NCBI RefSeq assembly: GCF_026157105.1
Contig: NZ_JANPVQ010000001.1
Location: 1,419,501 to 1,483,500, forward strand
Origin: Sphingomicrobium marinum
GTDB lineage: Bacteria > Pseudomonadota > Alphaproteobacteria > Sphingomonadales > Sphingomonadaceae
DNA: 64,000 nt
Reading direction: 5' to 3'
Part shown: piece by piece, positions 14,351-53,209 of the stretch
How positions within the stretch are numbered: position 1 is the stretch's first letter
Layout of the letters: every line of letters starts with the position of its first letter
Position numbers and translations under genes: made by a program
Notes under the pieces: model-generated
What the model saw: only the letters and a program-made list of their open reading frames with translations
Told to the model about the DNA's origin: nothing
Databases searched by the model: none

Positions 14351-14908
14351 ATGACGCTGATCATCACCTTGGTCGTTCTGGCTGTCATCGCGTTCGCGGT
14401 GATCGCAATCTATAACAACCTGGTGCGCCTGCGCGCGCTGGTGCGCGAGGCCTTCAGCGGGATCACCGTGCAGCTGCGCCGTCGCGCCGACCTCATCCCC
14501 AACCTCGTCAAGACCGTGGAAGGCTATGCCACCCACGAAAAGGACACGCTTGAGAAAGTCATCGCGCAGCGCGGCAACGCGGCGGCAGCCAAGGGCGTCG
14601 AGGCAACGGCGCAGGCCGACAGCCTGATGAGCGGCCTGATCGGTCGCTTGCTGGCGGTCGCCGAGGATTATCCCGAGCTCAAGGCCGACGAAAACTTCCA
14701 GATGCTGCAGAACGAGCTGTCGGCAATCGAAGGCGAGCTGCAGGCCACGCGCCGCTATTACAACGCCACCGCGCGCGATCTCAACACGCGGGTGCAAAGC
14801 TTCCCCGATGTCGTGGTCGCTGGACCGTTCGGCTTTAGTACCGAGCCATATTACGAAGATCCCGACGAAAGCATCCAGACCGCGCCAAAGGTCGAGTTCA
14901 ACAACTGA
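14351..14908 (+). CDS. lemA: LemA family protein
   Basis: A 185-residue inner-membrane protein. An N-terminal transmembrane helix (MTLIITLVVLAVIAFAVIAI) is followed by a helical bundle. The LemA signature is present: YNNLVRLRALVREAFSGI, RRADLIPNLVKTVEGYA, and later YPELKADENFQMLQNEL and RYYNATARDLN. The role is unknown, although the family is widespread and usually paired with TPM or DUF2207 membrane proteins, as here: its stop shares a base with the next start (TGATG). GGGGAG sits about five bases before the ATG. Confidence 0.95.
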   Translation: MTLIITLVVLAVIAFAVIAIYNNLVRLRALVREAFSGITVQLRRRADLIPNLVKTVEGYATHEKDTLEKVIAQRGNAAAAKGVEATAQADSLMSGLIGRLLAVAEDYPELKADENFQMLQNELSAIEGELQATRRYYNATARDLNTRVQSFPDVVVAGPFGFSTEPYYEDPDESIQTAPKVEFNN

Positions 14909-16836
14909 TGCGTGCGCCGGGCGCACTTCTCGCCCTTTTCCTGGCCTTGTTCGCCTTTGCCGCCCCGGCAGCGGCGGACGAGCGCATCCTGGCATGGCAC
15001 AGCGATTTCTTCATCGCCGAAAATGGCGTGATGACCGTGACCGAACGCATTCGTGTGCGATCGGAAAACAACCGTATCCGGCGCGGCATTTTTCGCGATC
15101 TGCCCACCCGCTACGCCACCGATCATGGCGGTACCATCAAGGTCGGCTTTGAGTTCATCGGTGCCGAGCGTAACGGCCGCGCCGAAAGCTACAGTCTCGA
15201 TCGCATGTCCAACGGACTACGTATCAAGATCGGCGACCCAGACGTCTTTATCGGCGCGGGCGAGCACGAATATGTGCTGCGCTATCGCATCAAGCGCGCG
15301 GTTGGCTTTTTCGACGGCTTCGACGAACTGTACTGGAACGTAACCGGCACCGGATGGGCGTTTCCCATCGATAGTGCCCGCGCCACCGTTCGGCTGCCCG
15401 AACCGGTCGAGTTTGGCCAGGCCGCTGTCTATACGGGTCGCCGAGGGTCGAGCGCCAGCAACGCCGAGGTGACGGCGCGCGAACCCGGTATCATCCGCTT
15501 TGCCACGACGCGTGGCCTCGCGCCGGGCGAAGGGCTCACGATCGCGGTCGCCTTTCCGAAGGGTGTCGTGGCCCCGCCGACCGAAGCCGAACTGCAGGTT
15601 CGTCGCATAGCGCAGCTCGCCGCGCCAATTGGCGCCATTCTCGGCATCCTCCTCATCTTCGGCTATTATTATGTTGCCTGGAAGAAAGCCGGCCGCGATC
15701 CCAGGCCCGGCACCGTCGTACCGCTATTCGCGCCGCCCGATGACATGAGCCCTGCCGCCATGCGGTACGTCACCAAGCAGCGCATGGATAATCGCGGTTT
15801 CGCCGCCGCGATGGTCAATGCCGCGGTCAAGGGCCATGTCCGCCTCGTCGAAGAGGGCGGCAGTTTCTTCGGCCTCGCCAAGGGCAAGACGCATATCGAA
15901 CGGCTCGAGGGGCCTGCAGCCCGCCCGCTCGAAGAGGGTGAGCGGCGCATGCTCGACCGGTTGGTGCCGATCGGCGACTCCATCACGATAGACCAAGAAC
16001 ATCACGCGGACTTCCGTGCCGCGATGAAGAAGCTCGGCAAGCCACACGAAAAACGTTTCGATGGCGCCGCCTTCAATCGCAATATCGGCTGGGCGGTGGC
16101 GGGGCTTGCCTTCGTGCTGCTCGGTGCCTGGATGGGCGCGGCCGGCACCGTTTGGGCCGAAGACGCGGCAAGCCCGCTTTATCTTCTGCTGACGGTCAGC
16201 GGCATGGCGATCACCGGGCTGCTATTCTTCTCGGTGCCGGAAAAAGGGTCGGGGCTGCGCTGGCCGATCATTTTCCTCGCCAGTGCCACGGGGATTGCGA
16301 CAACGCTTGGCGCGCTGCCGATGTTGCCGCTTGCCCTGTCGACCGGAAACGCCCTTCCGGTGCTCGCCCCGCTTTTCATTGGCGGTTTGATGTGGCTCGG
16401 CGGTTTTTTCTGGATGTCGGCCCCTACCGTGGAAGGGCGCGCTCTCCTCGACAGGATAGCCGGCTTCAAACGCTATCTGTCGACGACCGAGCAGGAACGG
16501 TTTGACCGCATGCAGCCGGCGAACGAGGATCTGCAATTGTTCGAGCGCTATCTGCCCTACGCGATCGCGCTCGGCGTTGAGAATAAGTGGGCCAAGCGCT
16601 TCGAAAGCAAGCTGTTGGCCGCCGCCAACGACCCGGGCCGCGTCGATCGTGGCTTCTACTGGTATTCAGGCTCGCAAAACGTCTGGGACAATCCGACCAA
16701 GTTCGCGACCGCGATTGGCTCCTCGATGGCATCTTCAATCGCCAGCGCATCGACTGCTCCCGGATCGTCGAGCGGATCGGGCGGCGGCGGGTTTTCCGGC
16801 GGTGGCGGTGGCGGTGGTGGTGGCGGTGGCTGGTAA
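14908..16836 (+). CDS. DUF2207 domain membrane protein
   Basis: The 642-residue protein begins with a signal peptide (MRAPGALLALFLALFAF, cleavage near AAADE). The N-terminal extracytoplasmic DUF2207 region includes RIRVRSENNRIRRGIFRDLP and the W in DELYWNVTGTGWAFPI. A transmembrane segment (LAAPIGAILGILLIFGYYYVAW) follows, then a cytosolic helical part. Several further helices lie around residues 390-515. The C-terminus is a glycine-rich tail ending SGGGGGGGGGGGW, a feature seen in many members of this family. Function is unknown; it is coupled to LemA. Such LemA-DUF2207 pairs are inferred to take part in envelope protein handling. Confidence 0.88.
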   Translation: MRAPGALLALFLALFAFAAPAAADERILAWHSDFFIAENGVMTVTERIRVRSENNRIRRGIFRDLPTRYATDHGGTIKVGFEFIGAERNGRAESYSLDRMSNGLRIKIGDPDVFIGAGEHEYVLRYRIKRAVGFFDGFDELYWNVTGTGWAFPIDSARATVRLPEPVEFGQAAVYTGRRGSSASNAEVTAREPGIIRFATTRGLAPGEGLTIAVAFPKGVVAPPTEAELQVRRIAQLAAPIGAILGILLIFGYYYVAWKKAGRDPRPGTVVPLFAPPDDMSPAAMRYVTKQRMDNRGFAAAMVNAAVKGHVRLVEEGGSFFGLAKGKTHIERLEGPAARPLEEGERRMLDRLVPIGDSITIDQEHHADFRAAMKKLGKPHEKRFDGAAFNRNIGWAVAGLAFVLLGAWMGAAGTVWAEDAASPLYLLLTVSGMAITGLLFFSVPEKGSGLRWPIIFLASATGIATTLGALPMLPLALSTGNALPVLAPLFIGGLMWLGGFFWMSAPTVEGRALLDRIAGFKRYLSTTEQERFDRMQPANEDLQLFERYLPYAIALGVENKWAKRFESKLLAAANDPGRVDRGFYWYSGSQNVWDNPTKFATAIGSSMASSIASASTAPGSSSGSGGGGFSGGGGGGGGGGGW

Positions 16837-31024: not shown

Positions 31025-31945
31025 TTACTGGCCAGCGGCTGCGGCCACCTCGGCAGCAAAGTCGCTTTCTTCCTTCTCGATGCCTTCACCGAGCTGGAAG
31101 CGCTCGTAGGCGGTCAGCTTGATTTCAGCGCCCGCATCCTTGCCGGCGGCCGCAATCACGTCGGCGACCGGCGTCTTGCCGTCGATCACGAACAGCTGCG
31201 AGAGAAGTGCGTTTTCCTTCTTGAACTTGGCGATGCCGCCTTCAACCATCTTCTCGGCGATGTTTTCGGGCTTGCCGCTTTCGATCGCCTTTGCCTTGGC
31301 GATCTCACGCTCGCGCGCGATCAGCTCGGGGTCGAGGCCATCGGCGTCGAGCGCCTGCGGGTTGGCAGCAGCGATGTGCATCGCGATCTGCTTGCCCAGC
31401 GCTTCGAGCGCCGCGCTGTCGGCACTGCTTTCAAGCGCGACCAGCACCCCGATCTTGCCCATGTTGGTGGCGACGGCATTATGCACGTAGCTGACGATGA
31501 CGCCTTCGTTCACCGCAACGGTGACGGTGCGGCGCAGCGACTGATTCTCGCCGATCGTCGCAATGTTGTCGGTAAGCACCTCTTCGACCGAACCGCCCGA
31601 GGCCATCTGCATGCCCTTGAGCTTTTCGATGTCGCCATCGGCCTGGAGCGCCAGTTCAGCGACCTGGCCGACAAATTCCTGGAACTTCTCGTTCTTGGCG
31701 ACGAAGTCGGTTTCCGAGTTGACCTCGACGACCGCACCCTTGGTGCCGTCGACCGCAACACCGACAAGACCTTCGGCCGCGGTACGGCCCGACTTCTTGG
31801 CGGCAGCAGCGAGACCCTTGGTACGCAGCCAGTCGACCGCGGCTTCAATGTCACCGTCGGTTTCGGCGAGCGCCTTCTTGCAGTCCATCATGCCCGCGCC
31901 CGAACGGTCGCGCAGTTCTTTCACCTGAGCGGCAGAGATTGCCAT
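31025..31945 (-). CDS. tsf: Translation elongation factor Ts
   Basis: Guanine-nucleotide exchange factor for EF-Tu. The 306-residue protein begins [20 protein letters not shown], followed by [20 protein letters not shown]. It contains the signature [16 protein letters not shown], whose TDFVxxN element contacts EF-Tu. Length and domain order are normal for the long bacterial form. It lies 141 bases after rpsB and is followed by a strong terminator. Confidence 0.97.
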
Positions 31946-32011
31946 GTCGCTATTCCTTTCATCGCCCCGCCTTCATCGTGCGAGGTCTTCTGGGGAGTTT
32001 TTACGGGAAAG

Positions 32012-32074
32012 GGCCGACGCCAATCATGGCGCCGACCGTTACCCTATAAATGGTGTCGTCCATACCGGACGACA
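32012..32074 (-). promoter_or_regulatory. Two hairpins between rpsB and tsf
   Basis: GGCCGACGCCAA (32012-32023) pairs, with G-U wobbles on the minus-strand RNA, with TGGCGCCGACC (32027-32037); the loop is only three or four bases. A second perfect stem, TGTCGTC (32054-32060) with GACGACA (32068-32074), lies between it and the rpsB stop. The first hairpin is followed by CTTTCCC on the minus strand, a poor U-tract, so partial termination or transcript stabilisation is the likeliest role. Confidence 0.45.
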
Positions 32075-32086
32075 AGACCGTCCGTT

Positions 32087-32839
32087 TTAGGCGGTCGCTG
32101 CTTCGGCCGGCGGATTTTCCATCGCGCCAATGTCTTCGCCCGAAGCAGCCGCCTGATCGCCGCGGCCGATCTTCACGGCATTGGCGATAGCGTCGCTGTA
32201 AAGGCGGATGGCGCGGCTGGCGTCGTCATTGCCGGGTACCGGGAAGGCGATGCCGTTGGGATCCGAGTTCGAATCGAGCACCGCGATGACCGGAATACCA
32301 AGCACGTTGGCTTCCTTGACGGCCAGTTCTTCCTTGTTGGTGTCGATGACGAACATGACATCGGGCAGGCCGCCCATGTCGCGAATGCCGCCAAGGCTCT
32401 TCTCGAGCTTGTCGCGCTCACGCGTCAGCTGGAGTACTTCCTTTTTGGTCAGGCCGGCAGTGTCGCCCGACAGCTGCTCTTCGAGCGTCTTCAGGCGCTT
32501 GATCGAGTTCGAGATCGTCTTCCAGTTGGTCAGCATGCCGCCGAGCCAGCGGTGGTTGACGTAATACTGGCCGCAGCTGGCCGCTGCTTCAGCGACGGCT
32601 TCCGACGCCTGGCGCTTGGTGCCGACGAACAGGACCTTGCCGCCGCGTGCCGTGGTCTGCTGCACGAAATCGAGCGCACGCGCGAAAAGCGGCACGGTCT
32701 GCGACAGGTCGATGATGTGGACGCCGTTGCGTGCGCCGAAGATGTACGGCTTCATGCGCGGGTTCCAACGGTGGGTCTGGTGGCCGAAATGCGATCCGGC
32801 TTCTAGCAATTGCTGCATCGTGACGACATTGGTCGCCAT
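32087..32839 (-). CDS. rpsB: 30S ribosomal protein S2
   Basis: The 250-residue protein has the S2 signatures: [20 protein letters not shown], the family-typical [45 protein letters not shown] and [20 protein letters not shown]. The C-terminal tail is acidic and alanine-rich ([13 protein letters not shown]). It is the first gene of the minus-strand cluster that runs to fabZ. The 264-base region upstream, shared with the divergent SOS-type gene, must hold its promoter and leader. Confidence 0.97.
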
Positions 32840-33024
32840 AGTCTTTCTCCTTCCGGTTCAACCTCGACAGTGCCTGTAACCTCCCTTGCGGAAAGCACCG
32901 GTATGGTGGCTCTGTCTGCGAGATGGGCGCGCGTCTAACGCGTAAGAGCGCCCGTTACAAGCCCATAATCACCCGCAAAATCTCGCGCCCGCTCAGGCGC
33001 TTACCTCCATTTTGGAGAAGGCGC

Positions 33025-33053
33025 TTGACAAGATGAGAACAAAAGTGGAACTA
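33025..33053 (+). promoter_or_regulatory. Promoter of the small SOS-type gene
   Basis: A perfect -35 TTGACA (33025-33030) is followed after 17 bases by GAACTA (33048-33053), a weak -10. The proximal LexA box covers this -10 and half of the spacer, the geometry expected for a repressed but intrinsically strong promoter. Transcription would begin near 33060, about 44 bases before the ATG. Confidence 0.65.
33037..33051 (+). promoter_or_regulatory. LexA (SOS) box 1, GAAC-N7-GAAC
   Basis: GAAC (33037-33040), seven bases, GAAC (33048-33051). This is the reverse complement of GTTC-N7-GTTC, the direct-repeat LexA operator of alphaproteobacteria. It overlaps the -10 element of the promoter starting at 33025. 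Confidence 0.75.
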
Positions 33054-33061
33054 AGGCACGA

Positions 33062-33076
33062 GAACAAAGACAGAAC
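33062..33076 (+). promoter_or_regulatory. LexA (SOS) box 2, GAAC-N7-GAAC
   Basis: GAAC (33062-33065), seven bases, GAAC (33073-33076). It lies 25 bases from box 1, in the same orientation, at about +2 to +17 relative to the predicted transcript start. Two boxes in 40 bases argue against chance. Confidence 0.75.
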
Positions 33077-33103
33077 GACAACGACAAACTCTTGGAGACA
33101 CCG

Positions 33104-33343
33104 ATGATCGCCAGCCTGCTGTTCGCCGCCATATCCCTCGGCCTGACTGTCCTTTTTGCTCATATCTGGCGCCATGACGGAGCCAAGATCCGGGCTGCGC
33201 TCCAAGGTCGGTCGTTAAAGGCTGCGGGTCAACATGCCCCCGTTGCGGTGACGGTGCGCTGGCTGCCGCGGGCGGGTGCATCCCCCGCCCCGCTCGCGGC
33301 CAATCTCAACCCGCGGAAAGGCGATCTGCGCGCCGCCGCTTGA
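33104..33343 (+). CDS. Small single-pass membrane protein, probably SOS-induced
   Basis: A 79-residue protein with an N-terminal hydrophobic helix (MIASLLFAAISLGLTVLFAH, residues 1-20), then a basic, probably cytosolic stretch (IWRHDGAKIRAALQGRSLK) and a Pro/Ala-rich tail ending [17 protein letters not shown] eight to nine bases upstream selects the ATG at 33104; the TTG at 33092 lies within that site. I recognise no domain. The promoter carries two LexA boxes, so induction by DNA damage is the main clue. By analogy with the SOS-induced inner-membrane division inhibitor SidA of Caulobacter, a checkpoint role is a reasonable inference, not a demonstrated one. Its last 38 bases overlap the convergent pssA 3' end. 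Confidence 0.7.
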   Translation: MIASLLFAAISLGLTVLFAHIWRHDGAKIRAALQGRSLKAAGQHAPVAVTVRWLPRAGASPAPLAANLNPRKGDLRAAA

Positions 33344-34088
33344 CCCGGCCGTAACTAGCAATGCTGAATGGCAGCAGCGCGAGGTAAAGCGCACTGATCG
33401 CAAGCAGCGTCAGCCACGGGGCGGTGATCAGCGCGCCAACCAGGAGCCCGACCCCCGCCAGCGCCGGAATGCGCCATGATCGGCGCAAGCGCAGCGAAGT
33501 CCAGCTGAACGTCGGGATCGAACTGATCATCAGCAGCGCGACGAACAGCACCCAGGGCATCACGACGAACCAATCGCGAAAGATATCCTGCTCGGTCAGG
33601 AGCCACAGATACATTGGCACGAAAGCCAGCCCTGCGCCGGTCGGGGCAGGAACGCCTGTATTGAACCCCGCCGACTTGTGCGGCTGGTCATCGGCGTCGA
33701 TGCGCGCATTAAAGCGCGCCAGCCTGAGCGCACAGGTGACCGCCAGCGCGAGGCTCGCGATCCACCCGAACTTGGGCGCATATTGCAGCGACCAGAGAAA
33801 CAGGATCAGCGCCGGTGCAACGCCGAACGCGATATTGTCCGACAGGCTATCGAGCTCGGCGCCGAAACGGCTGGCGGCGCGCAGCAATCGCGCAATCCGG
33901 CCATCGAGACCGTCGAGAACGCCGGCGCCGATGATGCAGTAGAGTGTCACTTCCCAATTGCCGTCGACCGCAAAGCGGATGCCCGTCAGGCCGAGACATA
34001 GCGCCGCGGCGGTAATCGCATTTGGCGCCACGGCCCGAAACGGTAGCCCGCGTCCCGGTTTAATGTCGACGGCGGCGGGATCGCTCAC
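33306..34088 (-). CDS. pssA: CDP-diacylglycerol--serine O-phosphatidyltransferase
   Basis: Makes phosphatidylserine from CDP-diacylglycerol and serine in the inner membrane. The CDP-alcohol phosphotransferase motif DG-x2-DGR-x8-G-x3-D-x3-D is present as [20 protein letters not shown] followed by ELDSLSD, within about residues 58-85. Multiple transmembrane helices run to the basic C-terminus ([13 protein letters not shown]). The 260-residue protein starts at a GTG (34088) overlapping the psd stop. Its product is the substrate of Psd immediately upstream. Confidence 0.94.
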
Positions 34089-34819
34089 GCGCTACGCCCC
34101 GGAAGCGCCTTGTCCAGGCCCAATTCCGCGATCACTGTCTCACCCGCGATCGTGCGCTGGCCAAGCAACACGCGGCTGCCCGTCCCCATCGGAAGGTAAA
34201 CGTCGACGCGGCTTCCGAACCTGATAAGGCCGACGCGTTCGCCCGCTTCCACGATGTCGCCTTCCTTGCGATCGGTCAGGATGCGGCGCGCGATTAGGCC
34301 TGCGATCTGGGTAAAGCCGACCTTCACGCCGTCCTCGCGCTCGACGAGAAAATGCTGGCGTTCGTTATCCTCGCTCGCCTTGTCGAGATCGGCGTTGAGG
34401 AACGCCCCCGGAATATAGGCGATCTTGCGGATCGTACCGGCGATCGGCGAGCGATTGATGTGCACATCGAACACGCTCATGAAAATTGAAACGCGCGTAT
34501 ATTCGGGATCGGTCAGGCCGCCCTCTTCTGCCAGTTCGGGCGGCGGCGGCACCTTGGTGATCATCGTGACCAATCCGTCAGCGGGCGCAATCACGACCTT
34601 GGGGCCAAGCGGTGTCGTGCGCATCGGATCGCGGAAGAAGGCCGCGACCCAGATGGTGATGCCGACAAACAGCCACCCGAACAGATCGGGCAGCAGCCAG
34701 AACAGGAGCAGCGTGATCGCCGCCGAGATGATGACGAATTTGCGACCTTCGGGGTGGACCGAGGGGAAGCGCCACTTGACGGCGGTCAGATGGCTATCGG
34801 GGTCTTTGAGTTCGGACAT
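34085..34819 (-). CDS. psd: Phosphatidylserine decarboxylase, short form
   Basis: Decarboxylates phosphatidylserine to phosphatidylethanolamine. This is the short (about 240-residue) Psd type with one N-terminal membrane region ([20 protein letters not shown]). It has the family blocks [30 protein letters not shown] and IGLIARRI-like [10 protein letters not shown]. The self-cleavage site that creates the pyruvoyl cofactor is the GS in [12 protein letters not shown]. It forms a two-gene phosphatidylethanolamine operon with pssA, joined by a GTGA overlap. Confidence 0.95.
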
Positions 34820-51829: not shown

Positions 51830-53173
51830 CTAGGCCGCGTCTTCGCCATCATTGGCGCCTTTTGGCGGCGGCGACAATTTGGTTAGTGGCCGCGGACTCG
51901 CTTCGACCACCCCCGGTTCCGCGATTTCCTTCGCGCTCCCCGACCCAAGCTCCTCGAACCGCCGCGCTTGCGTGAACACCTGGCTTTCCATGCTGCCCAC
52001 CATCTTGTTGTAACTGTCATTGGCGCGCGACAAGTGGGTGCCCATCTTGAGGACATGATCGGCCATCGTGGCGATCCGGCTATGCAATTCCTTGCCAAGC
52101 GCTTCGATGTCCTTGGCATTCTCCTTGAGGCGTTCCTGGTTCCATACGCTGGCTACGGTTCGAGCGATGGCAACAAGGTTCGTGGGGGTCGCGAGCAGCA
52201 CTTTCTTTTCGAACGCCCAATCCCAAAGGCCCGAGTCCTTTTCGAGAGCGGCCGTGAGAAAATGTTCGCCCGGAACGAACATCACCACATAATCGGCCGC
52301 GTCGTCGAATTGCGCCCAGTAGCTTTTCGACCCAAGTTGCTGGGCGTGGTTTTTCATCGAGGCGAGATGCTGTGACAGATAGCGATCGCGCGCGTCGTCA
52401 TCGACCTCGTCGGTTGCGTCCAGATAGGCATTGAGCGAGCACTTGGCGTCGATCACCAGCTTGCGCCCGCCGGGAAGATTGACCACCGCGTCAGGCCGCA
52501 GTCGGCCATCTTCGCCATCGACCGACACCTCGGTAAGGTAATCGATATGTTCCGAAAGCCCTGCCTGCTGCAGCACGTTTTCGAGCGTCTTTTCACCCCA
52601 TCGTCCCCGCGCCTTGGGCGATGAACGCAGCGCATTGACGAGATTGCGCGTTTCATCGCGCACCTGCCCCTGCCCTCTCTTGACCTCGTCGACGACGGCC
52701 TTGAGCCCCGAATAGGCGCTTACCCGGTCCTTCTCGACCGCGTCGATCTTGGCCTTCTGTTCGGCGAGCAATTTCTGGATCGGATCGACCAGCCCCTTGA
52801 GCTGCGCCTCCGATTTCTGGTCGGCCTCGCTGAACCGCGCACCGGCTTTCTCGAGAAAATCCTTTTGCGCCTTGTCGAGCAACCGGTCGGCCGCTTCGCG
52901 AAACTGGTTGAGCTGCGCGTCTTTCTGCTCGTGAAAATCCTTGAGCCTTTGGTCGAATGTCGCCTTTTCAGCCTTGAGCGCTGCGAGTTCGTCTTGCGCT
53001 GCATCGATGCGCGTGCGCGCCTCGTCCCGCTCTTCGCGCACGCTATCGAGCTGCATCCGCAAATTCTCGACCTGCGCCTCGCTTTTGCCCGATTGTAGCT
53101 TCGCGATGAGAAAGCCGATTACACCGCCGATTACGGCGCCGATGATCAATCCAACCAGTATATTCACGTCCAT
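51830..53173 (-). CDS. rmuC: DNA recombination protein RmuC
   Basis: The 447-residue protein has an N-terminal transmembrane helix (MDVNILVGLIIGAVIGGVIG), a long coiled coil (about residues 30-165), and a PD-(D/E)XK nuclease-like domain. Diagnostic stretches are SSPKARGRWGEKTLENVLQQ, RPDAVVNLPGGRKLVIDAKC (putative nuclease Asp-Glu/Lys region) and KVLLATPTNLVAIARTVASV. RmuC limits inversions at short repeats in E. coli. The tail is Pro-rich. A LexA-type GTTC-N7-GTTC box lies 22-36 bases upstream of the ATG, suggesting SOS control. Confidence 0.94.
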   Translation of the reverse strand: MDVNILVGLIIGAVIGGVIGFLIAKLQSGKSEAQVENLRMQLDSVREERDEARTRIDAAQDELAALKAEKATFDQRLKDFHEQKDAQLNQFREAADRLLDKAQKDFLEKAGARFSEADQKSEAQLKGLVDPIQKLLAEQKAKIDAVEKDRVSAYSGLKAVVDEVKRGQGQVRDETRNLVNALRSSPKARGRWGEKTLENVLQQAGLSEHIDYLTEVSVDGEDGRLRPDAVVNLPGGRKLVIDAKCSLNAYLDATDEVDDDARDRYLSQHLASMKNHAQQLGSKSYWAQFDDAADYVVMFVPGEHFLTAALEKDSGLWDWAFEKKVLLATPTNLVAIARTVASVWNQERLKENAKDIEALGKELHSRIATMADHVLKMGTHLSRANDSYNKMVGSMESQVFTQARRFEELGSGSAKEIAEPGVVEASPRPLTKLSPPPKGANDGEDAA

Positions 53174-53194: not shown

Positions 53195-53209
53195 GAACGA
53201 AACGGGAAC
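53195..53209 (-). promoter_or_regulatory. LexA (SOS) box upstream of rmuC
   Basis: On the minus strand the sequence is GTTC, CCGTTTC, GTTC, matching GTTC-N7-GTTC exactly. It lies in the 47-base gap between the upstream coiled-coil gene and the rmuC start at 53173, so it could control an rmuC promoter here. No clear -35/-10 pair was found in this short gap. Confidence 0.6.

Follow-up and report, generated by a model that had tools for sequence, protein, structure and literature searches.

In Caulobacter, SidA is an SOS division inhibitor that binds FtsW (PMC4211646). SidA resembles the small protein from Sphingomicrobium marinum described here in that both are LexA-controlled, very short, alphaproteobacterial inner-membrane proteins with a GTTC-N7-GTTC operator (PMC4211646, PMC12700426). 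By length and description the two are nevertheless set apart, since SidA has 29 aa as compared to 79 aa here (mostly 67-111 aa among the orthologues), and the small protein has a juxtamembrane motif, a basic tail and a C-terminal Ala-Ala. DidA of Caulobacter, which binds FtsN and is induced by DNA damage, is similar to the small protein in having one transmembrane helix and 71 aa (PMC4211646), but it is SOS-independent and activated by DriD, whereas the small gene is located under LexA boxes. The SOS-induced membrane proteins YneA and SosA block division in Gram-positive bacteria (PMC13396833, PMC6051672, PMC6851548). YneA of Bacillus is cleared by proteolysis and binds FtsW through its transmembrane segment (PMC13396833, PMC6051672), and its authors suggest that FtsW is a common target of such inhibitors (PMC13396833). 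The LysM domain of YneA is extracellular and required, whereas the tail of the small protein is predicted to be cytosolic and has no recognised domain. SulA in E. coli is an SOS division brake that is cleared by a cytosolic ATP-dependent protease (PMC6051672), to which we liken the clearance proposed below, but SulA is soluble, binds FtsZ and is without a membrane helix, which the small protein has.

The small gene sits between the divergent rpsB and the convergent pssA in the window, by which we mean the whole stretch of 64,000 nucleotides that was analysed (Table 1). A sequence-only reading had placed a TTGACA element, two GAAC-N7-GAAC boxes and an ORF for 79 aa at this locus, all of which were recovered at the same positions. 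An alternative in-frame start codon, TTG at 33092, would yield a protein of 83 aa, but the ATG is preferred because of its spacing to the Shine-Dalgarno sequence. With a spacer of 17 nt from TTGACA, the second half-site of box 1 becomes part of the -10 element.

Table 1. Features of the small-gene locus, in positions of the window.
Feature	Position	Strand	Basis
-35 element, TTGACA	33025..33030	+	Sequence
LexA box 1, GAACAAAAGTGGAAC (GAAC-N7-GAAC), between -35 and -10	33037..33051	+	Sequence
Probable -10 element, GAACTA	33048..33053	+	Sequence; inferred from spacing
LexA box 2, GAACAAAGACAGAAC (GAAC-N7-GAAC), about the +1 region	33062..33076	+	Sequence
Shine-Dalgarno, GGAG, 6 nt 5' of ATG	33094..33097	+	Sequence
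Small membrane protein gene, ATG 33104 to TGA 33343, 79 aa	33104..33343	+	ORF, conservation, synonymous/non-synonymous counts
N-terminal transmembrane helix, residues 2 to about 24 (helix runs on to 33)	33107..33175	+	AlphaFold
Conserved juxtamembrane motif DGAKIRAALQGRS, residues 25-37, G-x-K-I-x-A-A-L-x-G	33176..33214	+	Alignments
C-terminal R-A-A-A, candidate ClpXP-type degron	33329..33340	+	Orthologue C-termini
38-nt antisense overlap of the 3' ends of the small gene and pssA	33306..33343	.	ORF coordinates
rpsB (30S ribosomal protein S2), divergent neighbour and conserved synteny anchor	32087..32839	-	Family search
pssA (CDP-diacylglycerol-serine O-phosphatidyltransferase family), convergent neighbour	33306..34088	-	Best family, score below the TIGR00473 cut-off
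psd (phosphatidylserine decarboxylase), upstream of pssA in an apparent operon	34085..34819	-	Family search

Taken alone, the bare GAAC-N7-GAAC motif is weak evidence against chance, with 4 matches in the window as compared to 1.9 expected, and 48 sites in the whole genome (2.24 Mb), no more than for the reversed control pattern. One of the matches in the window, at 15325-15339, lies inside an ORF of 642 aa (14908-16836) and is probably a chance match. The two boxes of the small gene are the only close pair on the same strand in the genome, and nowhere else in the genome is a box preceded by TTGAC at promoter spacing. In the same genome, lexA, recA, radA, pdeM, an rmuC-like gene (as read from the sequence) and a gene for a DNA cytosine methyltransferase are each preceded by a box, and the operator is considered valid in this genome because boxes precede lexA, recA, radA, pdeM and the methyltransferase gene. 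The box upstream of the RmuC-like gene (51830-53173, minus strand) is GAACGAAACGGGAAC on the plus strand at 53195-53209 in the window, and boxes were also seen before rmuC-like genes adjoining pssA in genus g32 (L158, L159). The methyltransferase, which may be SOS-controlled, has the box GAACATAAATAGAAC 66 bp 5' of its gene (L088, G000:C1:630128), and another box, GAACATAACATGAAC, is located 60 bp 5' of a gene that appears ribonucleotide reductase-like from its sequence only (L083, G000:C1:540861). The locus shows the traits of an alphaproteobacterial LexA regulon member, with a GTTC-N7-GTTC operator over the promoter, the same operator before lexA and recA, and conservation of the operator at orthologues. 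LexA control of the small gene is predicted with near-certainty.

Codon comparisons point to strong purifying selection on the reading frame. Compared with its nearest relative, to which it has 97% protein identity, the small gene shows 12 synonymous and 2 non-synonymous codon changes, the non-overlapping part having about 56 sites of the synonymous and 142 of the non-synonymous class, and in the same pair TTGACA and both boxes are unchanged. A search with the single sequence recovered the small gene from 15 of 61 genomes, and a contig scan with that sequence recovered it from the nearest MAG only, such that synteny with rpsB and pssA was needed. With a profile built from those 15, matches were obtained in 33 of 401 genomes of the order, of which 25 were from the same genus (out of 27 genomes) and the other 8 from elsewhere in the family. 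All profile matches that were fetched have one or more exact LexA boxes immediately 5' of the gene and, within the limits of the contigs, adjoin rpsB and/or pssA. A class-wide profile search gave one weak match outside the family (E 5.7e-4), with no LexA box and an implausible Arg-rich frame, which we attribute to chance. The sequence-only reading had made its proposal dependent on conservation of the boxes and of the reading frame in orthologues; the boxes were present at all fetched profile-found orthologues, and both the alignments and the codon changes given above show a conserved frame.

The promoters of the orthologues are nearly always of the form TTGAC-N6/7-LexA-box. At the 65 orthologue loci, TTGAC was found 9-12 nt before a box 58 times, while the distance from the box to the ATG ranges from about 20 to 190 nt. 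Since the spacing between TTGAC and the box is fixed and that to the start codon is variable, the box belongs with the small gene's promoter. About 97% of SOS promoters in Caulobacter have one box (PMC12700426). The tandem boxes seen here are thus unusual and would fit a product that is costly when its expression is leaky, but since two or more boxes were found in 21 of the 65 orthologues, about a third, they do not constitute a rule for the family.

Because the small protein diverges fast, we surveyed the rpsB slot in 39 Sphingomonadaceae genomes, mostly picked regardless of the small gene, and in 19 genomes from other families of the order. In 37 of the 39 genomes, a LexA box was identified ahead of a gene for a small protein with an N-terminal transmembrane segment, either in the rpsB slot, a few kb off, or beside a pssA gene located elsewhere; the box has one mismatch in one of the 37. 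No such combination was found in the remaining two (G090, G096), and none of the 19 rpsB loci from other families had a box in the region read. Over all loci of the family, 92 boxes were counted in 47.2 kb of slot as compared to only 6 in 470.8 kb of strand elsewhere, an enrichment of about 150-fold, and boxes were also seen in genera where synteny alone identifies the small gene. The small gene is present in essentially every Sphingomonadaceae genome examined. In one genome of genus g32 (L050, L149), the small protein is duplicated in tandem 5' of rpsB; each copy terminates in EAA, and only the second has an exact box. A possible distant counterpart was seen in family f2 (L169, G037), where a box precedes by 32 bp an ORF for a 60-aa protein with a single transmembrane segment, which ends in VAAE and is located about 1 kb from pssA.

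AlphaFold predicts a single helix from residue 2 to 33 (pLDDT 96-97 for residues 1-20), followed by an unstructured tail of low confidence. The pI is 12.0, with 10 K/R versus 2 D/E, in agreement with the earlier description of one membrane helix and a basic tail. Alignments within the genus and with near relatives display a hydrophobic N-terminal helix, the motif G-x-K-I-x-A-A-L-x-G-x-S, a basic tail with RPVTVR, and a terminal R-A-A-A. In 62 of 65 orthologues, K/R residues are more numerous on the C-terminal side of the helix than on its N-terminal side (median pI 11.8), and according to the positive-inside rule the protein is therefore predicted to have its N-terminus outside and its tail in the cytosol. 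No relative of the small protein was found in searches of Pfam, NCBIfam, PHROGs, PDB and plasmids. The disordered tail, predicted to be cytosolic and without a Pfam match, differs from the extracytoplasmic LysM domain of YneA, and a SulA domain was matched in neither Pfam nor NCBIfam for this protein with its membrane helix. The single transmembrane helix and small size are those of SOS-induced small membrane division inhibitors. Genus g49 (L162, G190) has a protein of 35 aa, MALVSITALLLLAGLAAGMLGRRRALLLSVLEGRG, on the minus strand near 2390-2543, beside pssA and preceded by TTGAC and a LexA box; it is of the size of SidA and consists of the transmembrane segment only, without the tail and without Ala-Ala. 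As only this form is found under the same promoter in one genus, the transmembrane part may be the active core. Overall, the proposal of an SOS- and LexA-controlled small membrane protein is strongly supported across the Sphingomonadaceae by the conserved frame, the boxes, the promoter geometry and the synteny.

Known SOS-induced small membrane proteins of such shape (SidA, YneA, SosA) inhibit division, and by this analogy division inhibition is our best functional guess for the small protein, with somewhat better than even chances that it is encoded by a LexA-repressed checkpoint gene of the Sphingomonadaceae. In the proposed mechanism, LexA bound to box 1, which shares bases with the -10 element, and to box 2 near the start site would block RNA polymerase. 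RecA filaments on damaged DNA would induce self-cleavage of LexA, upon which the strong promoter would fire. The protein would insert into the inner membrane such that the short N-terminus faces outward and the basic tail lies in the cytosol, and its helix would most likely bind a membrane component of the divisome (FtsW, FtsI or FtsN), as in the known inhibitors, and delay septation. Once LexA represses again, ClpXP or a similar protease might recognise the Ala-Ala end and clear the protein, so that division resumes. Against division inhibition stand the lack of detectable similarity to any named family and the basic tail, predicted to be cytosolic, unlike YneA, in which LysM acts outside the membrane. 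Against the degron step, most genomes have an Ala-Ala end that cannot be fully separated from the overlap with pssA.

The C-terminal Ala-Ala is probably a degron of the ClpXP type. The protein ends in Ala-Ala, as expected of an ssrA- or CtrA-like C-terminal degron, in 61 of 65 orthologues and in Ala-Ala-Ala in 42 of 65, as compared to AA in 3 of 58 large ORFs in the window, and the tmRNA tag of the genome, ANDNEALAIAA, likewise ends in AA. In Caulobacter, replacement of the terminal alanines of CtrA by aspartates stabilises the protein (PMC4433202); our literature search on a ClpXP/RecN degron yielded no paper. The AAA-stop of the small gene is antisense to V-K-R-R in PssA, and this overlap confounds the conservation of Ala-Ala. 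AA is, however, kept in six copies without pssA overlap (two in L050, and L143, L174, L175 and L124). Where the genes overlap, only R, Q, L and P occur at the two PssA positions facing the alanines (62 of 62 for both positions), substitutions that leave Ala unaltered, whereas PssA tails without overlap mostly have K, A or H at these positions. The latter comparison is indirect and partly circular, as conservation of Ala implies it, the point being that PssA has changed non-conservatively and Ala has not. Since the six overlap-free copies keep AA and the PssA residues vary only in ways silent for Ala, the Ala end itself seems to be selected, and on the same grounds we largely reject R-A-A-A as a mere shadow of the PssA tail.

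Other functions were weighed against division inhibition. An SOS-induced membrane adaptor outside division control, whose target would be a membrane protease such as FtsH, a transporter or envelope synthesis, is a less likely alternative: small single-helix proteins often work in this manner and the sequence has no feature that points to the divisome in particular, and no specific evidence counts against it other than that the common precedents for SOS-induced small membrane proteins are division inhibitors (PMC13396833, PMC4211646).

TisB of E. coli is a LexA-controlled small membrane protein, and the small protein is likewise hydrophobic and basic and encoded under tandem boxes. TisB has been described as a dormancy-inducing membrane toxin (PMC11575346). 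A factor of this kind would depolarise or perturb the inner membrane and slow growth, with any cell lengthening being secondary. We consider this unlikely: TisB is shorter and has an RNA antitoxin, whereas neither an antitoxin RNA nor a second gene was recognised at this locus, with no Rfam match in 31800-34200, and most toxin loci are not conserved almost universally at a single chromosomal position, as this one is. The conserved juxtamembrane motif, the tail and the degron-like end instead suggest a specific partner and rapid clearance.

In almost every genome the small gene overlaps the 3' end of pssA in antisense, and in some genomes it stays with pssA where the latter is located away from rpsB. 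This could point to interference with pssA, in which the synthesis of phosphatidylserine and phosphatidylethanolamine would be lowered by the protein itself or by convergent transcription under SOS control; such a role is improbable, since several genomes have pssA elsewhere and yet retain the small gene with its LexA promoter, and the frame is under selection. Although rpsB diverges from the same intergenic region, the idea that the boxes regulate rpsB-tsf or are chance matches can practically be dismissed, because they stand at fixed spacing to a -35 element that faces the small ORF, they accompany the small gene where it is kilobases away from rpsB or next to a relocated pssA, and their enrichment is far beyond chance.

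Returning to division inhibition, the full proposal is that the Sphingomonadaceae as a family have a single, independent SOS division checkpoint protein, which evolves fast, is not related to SulA, SidA or YneA, and limits itself through a C-terminal Ala-Ala degron that in most genomes is encoded antisense within the final codons of pssA; in its entirety we put this forward tentatively, at slightly less than even chances. The literature searches, with most subscription papers outside their scope, found no description of the small gene, and one elsewhere is possible. An RNA-seq study of Sphingopyxis TFA under anoxia gives lexA, recA, radA, dinG, imuAB-dnaE2 and SRAP/alkB genes as the SOS set, and the small gene is unmentioned in the passages covered (PMC6472365). 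That the protein is undescribed, as first suggested, is strongly supported within the literature covered, with no named family and no describing paper found. In our view the protein represents a new family of a functional kind that is already known, and the family would still be new if its function differs.

Similarity searches miss such genes because the sequence diverges rapidly while the genomic place stays fixed. Sphingomonads are abundant environmental bacteria, and in our literature searches we came across no account of how their division is halted after DNA damage. The small gene provides a defined, almost universal candidate with a readable promoter and putative degron, which can be tested in laboratory sphingomonads. 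If the proposal is true, it would add an independent family to the SOS-induced small membrane proteins that seemingly converge on the divisome.
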